Assembly: GCF_014333615.1 (NCBI RefSeq)
Contig: NZ_JACSCY010000003.1
Coordinates: 310,001 to 374,000, forward strand
Direction: 5' to 3'
DNA: 64,000 nucleotides
Origin: Hymenobacter citatus
Lineage (GTDB): Bacteria; Bacteroidota; Bacteroidia; Cytophagales; Hymenobacteraceae
The position numbers and the translations under genes were made by a program. The notes below the pieces were generated by a model. It searched no databases, was not told the origin of the DNA, and saw nothing but the letters and a program-made list of their open reading frames with translations. Within the stretch, counting starts at the first letter, position 1, and every line of letters begins with the position of its first letter. Below, piece by piece: positions 15,143-19,254 of this stretch.

Positions 15143-18100
15143 TCATAGCGCCGTAACCGGCACGGCCGCGGGGTCGTAGTTCAGATTGGGGGCCAGCCAG
15201 CGTTCCAGATCGGCCAGGGGCATGTTCTTGCGCTCAGCAATGTCCTCTACCTGGTCTTTGCCGATGCGGCCCAAACCGAAGTAACGCGAGGCCGGGTGGG
15301 CGTAGTAGAGCCCACTCACCGACGAGGCAGGGTACATGGCCAGGTTTTCGGTGAGGTGAATACCGGTTTTATTCTCCGCGTCGAGCAGCTCAAACAGCGT
15401 GATTTTCTCGGTGTGGTCGGGGCAGCCGGGGTAGCCGGGGGCGGGGCGTACGCCGCGGTACTGCTCCTTGATGAGGTCTTCGTTGGAGAGCTTTTCATCG
15501 GAGGCGTAGCCCCAGAACTCCTCCCGCACGCGCTGGTGCAGGCGCTCGGCAAAGGCCTCGGCCAGGCGGTCGGCCAGGGCTTTGATCATGATGTTGGAGT
15601 AGTCGTCGTGGTCTTTCTCGAACTGCTCCAGCAGCTTCTCGATGCCCAGGCCCGCCGTTACGGCAAAGCCGCCGATGTAGTCGGCGCGTTCGGTTTCCAG
15701 CGGGGCCACAAAGTCGGAGAAGGCTAGGTTGGGGATGCCGGGGCCCTTCTCGCCCTGCTGGCGCAGGGTGAAAAACTCCGTCTCTACCTCTTGCCGGGTA
15801 TCGTCCTTAAACACCTGAATGGTGTCGTAGCCAACCGTATTGGCCGGCCAGAAACCAACCACGGCGCGGGCCGTCAGCAGCTTTTCGTCGATGACTTTGC
15901 GCAGCATGGCTTGCGCATCTTCGAATAGCTTGGTAGCCGCCTCGCCCAGGGTTTCGTCTTCCAGGATGCGCGGGTAGCGGCCTTTCAGCTCCCAGGTGTG
16001 GAAGAAAGGCGTCCAGTCGATGTACTCGGCCAGCTCGGCCAGGTCGTAGTCTTCCAGCACTTTGGTTCCAAGGAAAGTAGGCTTGGTGATGGGCGTTTCG
16101 TCCCAATCGGCCTTGAAGCCGTTTTCGCGGGCCTGCTCGATGGTGAGATAGTGCTTGTCGCGCTGGCGGCCGGCGTAGTCGTGGCGGAGCGTGTCGTACT
16201 CGTCGCGCACGGTGTGGGCGTAGGTTTCCTTGGCTGAACCCAGCAGGCCCGCCGCTACCCCCACCGAGCGCGAAGCATCGTTCACGTGCACCACCGGACC
16301 GGTGTAGGCCGGGGCAATCTTCACGGCGGCGTGCAGACGCGAAGTGGTAGCGCCGCCAATGAGCAGGGGCGTTTGCAGGCCGCGCCGCTCCATCTCCTGG
16401 GCCACGTACACCATCTCATCAAGCGAGGGCGTAATCAGCCCACTCAGGCCGATGATATCCACGTTGTGGGCGGCGGCTTCGTCCAGAATCTTTTCCAGGG
16501 GCACCATCACGCCCAGGTCCACAATGTCGAAGTTGTTGCAGGCCAGCACCACGCCCACAATGTTTTTGCCGATGTCGTGCACGTCGCCTTTCACCGTGGC
16601 CAGCAGGATTTTGCCGGCGGTTTGCCGGTCGCCGCTCTGCTTGTCGGCCAGCAGGTAGGGCTCGAGGTAGGCCACGGCCTTCTTCATCACGCGAGCCGAT
16701 TTTACCACCTGCGGCAGGAACATTTTGCCGGCCCCAAACAGGTCGCCTACCACGTTCATGCCGGCCATCAGGGGGCCTTCAATTACATCCAGCGGGCGGC
16801 TTACCTGTTGGCGTGTCTCTTCCGTATCCTGGTCGATGAACTCGGTGATACCGCGCACCAGGGCGTGCTGTAGGCGCTCCTGTACCGGCAGGCTGCGCCA
16901 GGCGTCGGCTACCACTTCTGCTTTGTCTTTCTGCTTCACCGTTTCGGCGAATTCCAGCAGGCGCTCGGTCGCGTCGGGGCGGCGGTTGAGCAGCACATCC
17001 TCTACCAATTCCAGCAGGTCCTTGGGCACTTCATCGTACACTGCTAGCTGGTTGGGGTTCACGATGCCCATATCCAGCCCCGCCTGAATAGCGTGGTAGA
17101 GAAAGGCCGCGTGCATGGCCTCGCGCACCACATCGTTGCCGCGGAAGGAGAAGCTGATGTTGCTGACGCCACCACTGGTCAGCGCCCCCGGCAGGGTGGC
17201 CTTAATCCAGCGCACCGCCTCAATAAAATCGATGGCGTAGTTGCGGTGCTCCTCCATACCGGTACCCACAATGAGGATATTGGGGTCGAAGATGATGTCT
17301 TCGGCCGGGAAGTCGATGCTCATCAGCAGGTCGTAGCTGCGCTGGCAGATTTCCTTGCGACGCTCCAGCGTATCGGCCTGGCCTTCCTCATCAAAGGCCA
17401 TTACCACCACAGCCGCGCCGTATTGGCGCACCGTGTGCGCGTGGGCAATAAATACCTCCTCGCCTTCTTTCAGGGAGATGGAGTTGACGATGCTTTTGCC
17501 CTGCACGCATTTCAGGCCGGCTTCCAGCACGTTCCACTTCGAGGAGTCAATCATCACCGGCACGCGGGCAATGTCGGGCTCCGAGGCAATCAGGTTGAGG
17601 AACGTAGTCATGGCCTGCTCCGAGTTGAGCATGCCTTCGTCCATGTTCACGTCGATGACCTGGGCGCCGCCCTCTACCTGCTCGCGGGCCACGGCCAGGG
17701 CGGCCTCGTAGTTGCCGGTGCGGATGAGGCGGGCAAAGGCGCGCGAGCCGGTGACGTTGCACCGCTCGCCCACGTTCACGAAGAGGCTTTGCTCGGTGAT
17801 GCCAAACGGCTCCAAGCCACTCAGACGGGTAGCGGGCGGCACCTCGGGTAGGGTGCGGGGTTTGTACTTCTCGGCCAGCCGAGCCAACTCGCCGATGTGC
17901 TGGGGCGTGGTGCCGCAGCAGCCGCCTACCACCGTCACGAGGCCATCGGCGAGGTAGCCCTCCACCACGCCCGCAAATTCCTCGGCCGACTCATCATACC
18001 CACCGAAGGCGTTGGGTAGGCCGGCGTTGGGGTAGGCCGAAATGTGCACGTCGGCAATGCGACTCAGCTCCTTGATGTAGACTTTGAGCTGATCGGCACC

Positions 18101-18853
18101 CAAGGCGCAGTTCAGGCCCACGCTGAGCAGGGGCAGGTGGCGAATGGAGTTCCAGAACGCCTCTACTGTCTGACCCGAGAGGGTGCGGCCCGAGGCGTCG
18201 GTAATAGTCCCGGAAATCATGACGGGCACCTGGCGGCCGCCTTGGTCGAAGAACTTCTGCACGGCAAACAGGGCCGCTTTGGCGTTCAGCGTGTCGAAGA
18301 TGGTTTCGATGAGCAGGGCATCAGAGCCGCCTTCTACCAGGCCGCGCACCTGCTCGAGGTAGGCGTGGGCCAGCTCGTCAAACGTCACGGCGCGGAAGCC
18401 GGGGCGGTTTACGTCAGGCGAAAGGGAGGCGGTGCGGTTGGTAGGGCCAATGGCGCCGGCCACGAAGCGCGGCTTGTCGGGATTCTGCCGCGTAAACTCG
18501 TCGGCTACTTCGCGGGCCAGCCGTGCCGACTCGTAATTCAGCTCATACACAATGTGTTCCAGGGCGTAGTCGGCCTGGGCAATGGTGGTGCCGGAGAAGG
18601 TGTTGGTTTCCACCATATCGGCGCCGGCGGCAAAGTACTCGGCGTGAATGCTCTTGATGATATCGGGGCGCGTGAGCGAGAGCAGGTCGTTGTTGCCGCG
18701 CAGGGGCTTGGCGTGGTCGGCAAACCGCGGGCCGCGAAAGTCTTCCTCCGTCAGCGTATGGCGCTGAATCATGGTGCCCATGGCGCCGTCCAGAATCAGG
18801 AGGCGGCGTTGGAGGATGTCGTAGAGCGGGGAGTCGGGGCAGGCAGTCTTCAT
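15143..18853 (-). CDS. metH: Cobalamin-dependent methionine synthase
   Basis: A 1236-residue enzyme that moves the methyl group of 5-methyl-THF through cobalamin to homocysteine. The ATG at 18853 gives [19 protein letters not shown]; a longer frame would run into the riboswitch. Domains in order: homocysteine-binding barrel with zinc ligands Cys249 (LNCALG) and Cys312/Cys313 (GGCCGTT); pterin barrel ([15 protein letters not shown], then [10 protein letters not shown]); cap and B12 domain with Asp757-x-His759 in DVHDIGKN, the same numbers as in E. coli MetH; and the AdoMet reactivation domain with [12 protein letters not shown] near residue 1140. All parts are complete. Control is by the SAM-I riboswitch in the leader. 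B12 must be made or imported; no B12 genes are in the window. Confidence 0.97.
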
Positions 18854-18900
18854 GGATTTTCCTTCGGGAAAGCAGCGGGTACGAAAGCTTATCCAGAAAG
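18853..18900 (-). promoter_or_regulatory. Expression platform of the metH SAM riboswitch
   Basis: In the transcript, the 13 nt CUUUCUGGAUAAG (complement of 18888-18900) are perfectly complementary to the 5' strand of P1 (19023-19035). The same segment can instead form a hairpin with the start region: UGGAU (18891-18895) with AUCCA (18853-18857, which includes the A of the start codon) and CUUUC (18883-18887) with GAAGG (18861-18865, one G-U pair). SAM binding would hold P1 and let this sequestering hairpin form; without SAM the longer 13-bp pairing would free the start codon. No terminator with a U-run is seen, so translational control is the better reading. The pairing is seen; the mechanism is inferred. 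Confidence 0.65.
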
Positions 18901-18927
18901 AGAAAACCGCCGAAGCAGGTTCCTGCA

Positions 18928-19035
18928 CTTATCTTCTTCCGCCCGATAGACGGGGCGAAATGGGAGTTGGCACCTTGTTTTATTTCAGGTTGCCAAGACG
19001 TCACAGGGCCCAGTCCCTCGGTCTTTCTGGATAAG
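18928..19035 (-). promoter_or_regulatory. SAM-I (S-box) riboswitch aptamer
   Basis: On the minus strand the region reads as a complete S-box: P1 5' strand CUUAUC, then AGAAAGACCGAGGGACUGG, the GGCCCUGUGACG turn, CUUGGCAACC, a short P3, AAGGUGCCAACUCC, a GC-rich P4 (GCCCCGUC...GGGC), and GAAGAUAAG as the 3' strand of P1. These are the conserved positions of the SAM-I class. It lies 74 nt upstream of the metH start and directly after the predicted transcription start, as expected for feedback of S-adenosylmethionine on methionine synthesis. Confidence 0.93.
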
Positions 19036-19042
19036 TAGTAAA

Positions 19043-19072
19043 CAAATATACGGCGCAAAGCGCAGATTACAA
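19043..19072 (-). promoter_or_regulatory. Bacteroidota-type promoter of metH
   Basis: On the minus strand TTG (19070-19072) is followed after exactly 19 nt by TATATTTG (19043-19050), a full match to the Bacteroidota -33/-7 consensus TTG-N19-TAnnTTTG. A start about 6 nt downstream would fall at roughly 19037, immediately before the riboswitch P1 helix. Confidence 0.8.
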
Positions 19073-19254
19073 CCGGCGTGGCTTTTCTGCTGGGGCTGTT
19101 GTCCGGCGCTGGCTTGGTAGATCGGGAATCTTGCTTGGTAGGCAGGACGCGGCACTCGGTTGAAAAAATCGGTACGGCTCTTTGTTCCGAAGCACTTTGT
19201 ATCGTCGGCGGCCAGTTGAACGCATCAGCTACTACTCCGCTGACTTTCAAGATT

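Follow-up and report, generated by a model that had tools for sequence, protein, structure and literature searches.

The question raised by this locus is by which route SAM, once bound to an aptamer in the leader of metH, could be felt at the gene itself. The metH gene of Hymenobacter citatus lies on the minus strand of the window (the whole stretch of 64,000 nucleotides that was analysed); its product of 1236 residues carries the Met_synt_B12, S-methyl_trans, Pterin_bind and B12-binding domains (Pfam), and a methylenetetrahydrofolate reductase gene lies downstream of it on the same strand (15012-14056). The metH frame is open upstream as far as a GTG at 18928 (18854-18928, minus strand), and the AUG at 18853 was taken as the start because the upstream frame varies among relatives whereas the AUG is kept. 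In one genome of the genus another metH N-terminal fragment, which contains one stop codon, lies upstream of the intact gene (G076:C1:3531734-3532057). A first-pass annotation of this DNA had proposed a translational SAM-I switch here, and the features that bear on that proposal are collected in Table 1.

Table 1. Features of the metH leader and gene, in window coordinates.
Feature	Position	Strand	Basis
Promoter-like TTG-N19-TATATTTG	19043..19072	minus	sequence reading
SAM-I aptamer	18926..19037	minus	RF00162 match
Aptamer 5' segment, predicted to pair with X when SAM is absent	19023..19035	minus	Rfam alignment and sequence reading
P1 3' strand	18926..18933	minus	Rfam alignment
X, putative switching strand (CUUUCUGGAUAAG)	18888..18900	minus	exact complement of 19023-19035; in 118/118 genus leaders
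Predicted sequestor, 5' side, UCUUUC, overlapping X	18896..18901	minus	minimum-energy fold, helix statistics
Predicted sequestor, 3' side, purine stretch GAAGGA before the start	18860..18865	minus	sequence reading, fold, helix statistics
metH, B12-dependent methionine synthase, AUG 18853-18851	15143..18853	minus	translation and Pfam

The metH leader holds a genuine SAM-I riboswitch, for which SAM binding is predicted from sequence. The aptamer matches the Rfam family RF00162 over model positions 1-108, with 73.2 bits against a gathering score of 44.4 (E 3e-15), has the core and helices that are conserved in the family, and stands on the same strand ahead of a methionine/SAM gene, metH being identified by Pfam. 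The S-box aptamer that the annotation had placed at 18928-19035 is thereby recovered at 19037-18926, and its promoter also reads as claimed, with TTG at 19072-19070, 19 nt, and TATATTTG at 19050-19043, an element whose first base lies 13 nt, and whose last base lies 5 nt, upstream of the aptamer. A search with the metH N-terminus matched 118 of 120 genomes of the genus (no match in two), and the upstream regions of all 118 were examined (30 + 88 loci, with the repeats L258-L260 and L328-L342 excluded). The covariance-model comparison that the annotation had suggested gave RF00162 scores above gathering in the window leader and in 118/118 genus metH leaders. The sequence TAnnTTY begins 12-15 nt upstream of the aptamer in every one of these leaders, and in 65 of them a TTG is separated from this element by 18-22 nt.

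Between the end of the aptamer (18926) and the AUG (18853) there are 72 nt, and within them lies the strand designated X, CUUUCUGGAUAAG (18900-18888), which pairs exactly with CUUAUCCAGAAAG (19035-19023) over 13 nt. The annotation had described this strand as a competitor to P1; the exact complement stands, but P1 alone is too narrow a target, which in the Rfam alignment comprises 6 nt of the P1 5' strand, 4 nt of J1/2 and 3 nt of P2. Of 5000 dinucleotide shuffles of the window leader, 3 produced a perfect complement of at least 11 nt to the aptamer 5' end. Across the genus, UAUCCAGAAAG occurs at the aptamer 5' end in 118/118 leaders and CYYUCUGGAY occurs 20-29 nt downstream of the aptamer in 117 (the remaining leader reads UUUUCUGGA), at a distance from X to AUG of 42-50 nt. 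Perfect runs of pairing between X and its target extend over 11-14 bp in 112 leaders and 8 bp in six, and an uncompensated A-C mismatch occurs within the helix in 6/118. When each leader was compared with its own dinucleotide shuffles, complementarity to the 5' strand was significant (p<=0.05) in 118/118 and to the 3' strand in none. X and its target are nearly invariant in the genus, so that the genus data alone speak for conservation, not for pairing.

Variation in both strands is found outside the genus. An aptamer model built from 34 sequences was searched in 190 metH loci, mostly of Bacteroidota, which were selected from longer match lists (72 + 27 + 40 hand-picked + 11 + 40 hand-picked); the 72 are those of 80 rows of metH relatives left after exclusion of L034-L041, named Hymenobacter, and may duplicate genomes of the genus set, and the 27 are from 30 loci. 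SAM-I aptamers were found in 127/190 (47/72, 51/78 and 29/40). By the same kind of shuffle test (p<=0.05), 76 of these 127 leaders have significant complementarity to the 5' strand and the other 51 do not, and 7/127 have it to the 3' strand, where about six are expected by chance. Examples include Pontibacter, in which UAUCAAGAA pairs with UUCUUGAUA, Algoriphagus (GCUUAUCGAG with CUCGAUAAGC) and Flavobacterium beibuense (GUUAUCA with UGAUGAC).

Covariation was assessed by placing X from its flanks only, which avoids choosing X by its pairing; X was found in this way in 37 of the 101 leaders with UAUnnAGAA, out of 127. The last P1 base and the first J1/2 base both match X in 20/37 (permutation mean 7.0, maximum 15 in 10000), or in 16/32 with duplicates collapsed (mean 5.3, maximum 13). 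The first J1/2 base, which has no partner within the aptamer, covaries with X and matches it by itself in 27/37 (mean 12.0, maximum 23; collapsed 23/32, mean 9.8, maximum 22). These permutations of X against the aptamer 5' end remove relatedness only in part. Exchange of partners between leaders of different type weakened the mean helix from -12.5 to -9.3 kcal/mol, and this swap test, taken leader by leader, is weaker than the flanks-only test, reaching p<=0.05 in 31/127 and 52/127. A table of X and aptamer-end pairs, in which the anchor is missing in six leaders, lists pairs only and is not evidence by itself. The 5'-strand competitor is well supported and extends well beyond the genus, and the competition with the 5' strand of P1 that the annotation had claimed is supported by the shuffle tests in the genus and elsewhere, with compensatory changes.

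How the state of X could affect the start of metH is a matter of the folds available downstream. The annotation had drawn a start-codon hairpin joining UGGAU:AUCCA to CUUUC:GAAGG, and this candidate was rejected: CUUUC (18900-18896) with GAAGG (18865-18861) crosses UGGAU (18895-18891) with AUCCA (18857-18853), and together they would make a pseudoknot and not a hairpin. Conservation in related metH leaders, by which the annotation had proposed to judge its reading, likewise upholds the competitor (118/118) but not the start-codon half of the hairpin (AUCCAUG in 3/118).

The minimum-energy fold of the window region instead pairs UCUUUC with GAAGGA and continues in an outer helix reaching into the coding region. 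This outer helix (18902-18911 with 18842-18851, GGCGGUUUUC:GAAGACUGCC, the 3' side within metH) is probably not conserved, since GAAGACGACC stands at this place in its close relatives L115 and L116. By eye, the first bases of X and its 5' flank pair with the purine stretch before the AUG in three clades of the genus (UUUCUCUUUC:GAAGGAGAAA, GGCUCUU:AAGAGCC and UUUCUUUC:GAAAGAAA), and at X-2 two clades have a C-G pair where the third has U-A. The best sequestor helix beats mononucleotide shuffles in 72/118 genus leaders. When sequestor strands were swapped, clade A gave -18.5 for native partners against -16.7 within the clade and -15.2 across clades, and in clade B the native value of -17.0 was no better than that within the clade (-17.2), with -15.8 across. 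A permutation test was positive but dependent on register (distinct pairs 21/56 against 15.7 expected for the last purine run and 26/54 against 17.2 for the first), the last-run register putting one clade out of register and 12/118 leaders having no register.

With X held unpaired, opening of the start region was predicted to cost 5.2 instead of 10.2 kcal/mol in 66 genus leaders and 3.0 instead of 8.0 kcal/mol in 52; the drop was at least 1 kcal/mol in 113/118, and in 108/118 the cost fell at least 1 kcal/mol below that obtained by holding other 12-nt segments. The drop in the window leader is modest, from 11.4 to 8.8 kcal/mol (2.6). In other genera the cost fell from 5.4 to 2.7, with a drop of at least 1 in 29 of 48 testable leaders; 26 of the 74 significant leaders there fell outside this test, their X lying too close to the assigned start, too distant from it or past it, and the assigned start precedes the aptamer end in four other-genus leaders (L062, L261, L375 and L382). 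By folding and helix statistics only, then, the same or an adjoining strand would sequester the start region in the alternative state. In models with enforced pairs and without ligand, the anti-P1 form came out stabler than the P1/P2 form, on average by 4.7 kcal/mol (range of the difference -13.7 to +2.3; 3.8 in the window leader). The unconstrained ensemble lay below both enforced states, by means of 1.9 and 6.6 kcal/mol, as is expected of a model that contains neither SAM nor tertiary contacts. This modelled balance agrees with a default ON state that SAM turns OFF.

We consider it likely that the metH leader is a translational OFF switch for plentiful SAM, which applies an anti-P1 logic to a SAM-I aptamer; the aptamer, X, its 5' complement and their conservation are read directly from sequence, and the steps that follow are our interpretation. 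Transcription would start at the promoter-like element. With SAM bound, P1 would be held closed and X left free, such that the pyrimidine part of X and its 5' flank could pair with the purine-rich stretch before the AUG and block ribosome loading. When SAM is scarce, X would invade the aptamer from its 5' side, taking up the P1 5' strand, J1/2 and the start of P2, which would destroy the SAM site, free the start region and keep the RNA ON. The decision would thus be taken on the 5' strand of P1 and not, as in terminator-type S-boxes, on the 3' strand. The action on translation that the annotation had claimed is favoured by a window leader devoid of terminator-like sites, by the spacing of 42-50 nt between X and AUG and by the predicted burial of the start when X is free, and a translational anti-P1 mechanism is probable on these models.

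The strongest challenge to this reading comes from transcription. The annotation had seen no U-run terminator, which is correct for the window leader (no terminator-like site in 18780-19150, shuffle mean 0.5) but not for many of its relatives: a Python copy of the scan rule found terminator-like sites in 64/118 genus metH leaders, where shuffles predict 9.7, distributed as 48/52 in clade B, 16/50 in clade A2 and 0/16 in the clade to which the window leader belongs. Of these 64 leaders, 62 have a tail whose first base lies between X-4 and X+2, in the 5' part of X, so that X may double as a terminator tail in these relatives and added transcription control is possible there. In clade B (L171, L182, L187-L190, L196 and others) a GC-rich hairpin adjoins the 5' side of X, with the pyrimidine tract of X as its tail. 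Other genera have terminator-like sites in 17/123 leaders (4.3 expected) and a U6 run in 42/127. Attenuation, alone or added, would treat the hairpin between P1 and X with the pyrimidine tract as a terminator, intrinsic or Rho-assisted, through which SAM acts on elongation; by eye, hairpin-U7 terminators can be recognised in hom-type SAM-I leaders of the genus, and the thiC riboswitch, in the sections of its description compared, joins Rho termination with translation control (PMC5234074). We regard this as unlikely for the metH leader. Neither the window leader nor the 16 leaders of its clade have such a site, no partner was found that could switch the hairpin through the P1 3' strand (3' complementarity significant in 0/118), and attenuation leaves unexplained both the covariation of X with the aptamer 5' end and the pairing at the start region.

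Alternatively, X could be kept for some other reason, for instance because a protein or small RNA binds it, or an uncharged tRNA does so as in the SAM-I riboswitch of Xanthomonas, with its 5' complementarity being secondary. Its near-invariance within the genus, which says little about pairing, would accommodate this, and a tRNA-binding SAM-I platform is on record in the part of the literature compared (PMC7270179); however, X varies together with the aptamer 5' end in other genera, and we give this explanation only a slim chance. Slimmer still is the prospect that the leader senses SAM yet tunes mRNA stability only, leaving initiation unaffected, against which stands the predicted change in start-region accessibility in 113/118 leaders. 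Returning to the translational anti-P1 switch, the balance tips slightly towards the broader proposition that many metH genes of Bacteroidota share a common, distinct and old SAM-I platform, in which a strand competes for the aptamer 5' side into J1/2, and that in part of Hymenobacter X has a second role as tail of a terminator-like hairpin. If this is true, evolution of the output region is coupled to that of a base in the sensing core, and with X as a terminator-like tail a single element would combine control of transcription with control of translation.

Terminator-type S-boxes, of the Bacillus subtilis yitJ kind, follow an OFF logic in which the terminator output is reached via the 3' strand of P1. 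The metH leader has the aptamer family and the OFF logic in common with them, whereas the intrinsic terminator and the 3'-strand route are absent from the window leader; the P1 3' strand is not shared with the platform by the shuffle tests in the genus or elsewhere. The metH leader shares its logic with the thiC TPP riboswitch of Escherichia coli, in which, according to the sections compared, a long-range anti-P1 stem pairs 5' residues C7-G16 with downstream residues ~146-154 and excludes both P1 and the sequestor of the ribosome site, the ligand-free form being ON; anti-P1 stems are predicted there for other E. coli riboswitches too (PMC5234074). The metH leader likewise has, downstream, a conserved strand able to pair with the 5' strand of P1; its aptamer and ligand are different, and thiC makes use of Rho and a mapped pause site as well (PMC5234074). 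The annotation had presented the 5'-strand design as a departure from the common scheme; given thiC, as that source describes it, the design is not unprecedented (PMC5234074).

Among translational SAM-I riboswitches, that of the Xanthomonas campestris met operon, which precedes metA, is a characterised case (PMC7270179). As portrayed in the sections compared, it resembles the metH leader in its SAM-I aptamer, the absence of an intrinsic terminator, a mainly translational OFF response and a SAM-bound hairpin over the SD and AUG; it differs in that the ligand-free form keeps the SD sequestered until uncharged initiator tRNA relieves it, and in regulating metA and not metH, and those sections describe no 5'-strand competitor (PMC7270179). 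In the portions consulted, Barrick and Breaker (2007) assigned terminator-less leaders to translation control and reported SAM-I in Bacteroidetes, did not predict sequestering structures, and reserved a direct class for start codons at most 15 nt from the aptamer (PMC2258182), whereas the spacing here is 72 nt. A literature search, mainly of openly available papers, found no description of a 5'-strand-competitor platform for SAM-I in Bacteroidota among the top matches listed, and no match for riboswitch together with Hymenobacter.

The available part of a 2024 review gives alternative pairing of the P1 3' strand as a defining trait of P1-controlled riboswitches (PMC11477058), and a 2026 study based on full-length covariation models from terminator-filtered sequences found, in the part seen, no significant SAM aptamer-platform covariation, unlike an earlier motif that it cites (PMC13273304). 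In the metH leaders such covariation is seen with a platform that is mostly translational, and it involves the 5' strand and J1/2. These leaders also supply a set of naturally matched aptamers and platforms in which to ask how invasion by a strand from the 5' side determines the sensing window. Bacteroidota are described, in the part of the source compared, as generally lacking Shine-Dalgarno sequences (PMC3155529), and structure at the start codon should therefore matter.

The genome holds four SAM-I aptamers. One of them, ahead of homoserine dehydrogenase (L002), is followed by a hairpin-U7 terminator recognised by eye, the loop of which can pair with the P1 3' strand (3' test p 0.05); this is a terminator-type leader, and the metH leader thus differs in kind from an S-box of its own genome. 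In the non-metH leaders L007, L010, L011, L012, L014 and L017 of the genus, a strand after the terminator like CUUUCUUGAUCAAGUGC complements, by eye, the 5' end of the leader's own aptamer, GCACUUAUCAAGAAAG. Among non-metH leaders with a U6 run, from the genus and other Cytophagales, complementarity was significant for the 5' strand in 20/31 and for the 3' strand in 12/31; one of these, L239, is in fact a metH leader, and in some genus leaders of this test the first open frame taken as the gene lay inside the leader, such that a shorter stretch was tested.

A different arrangement is seen at metY (O-acetylhomoserine sulfhydrylase-like) loci of Cytophagales, which carry tiny upstream frames, starting with ATG, GTG or TTG, with at least three consecutive cysteine codons. 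Such frames occur within 450 nt in 20/30 metY loci, against 0.08 expected from mononucleotide shuffles, and 29/30 of the metY-type loci have a SAM-I match somewhere within the locus. From sequence, these leaders look as if a SAM riboswitch and a cysteine leader-peptide attenuator were placed in series, a combination of which no description was found among the matches listed in a literature search. Examples from the metY-type loci L394-L423 include MCCCCCCC, MRMCCWCPCCC and MAAMCCCCCCCM, and the frame MGMMCCCACCC is present in L001, the leader with an aptamer at G000:C25:49175-49266 ahead of a PAPS reductase gene, and in L016.
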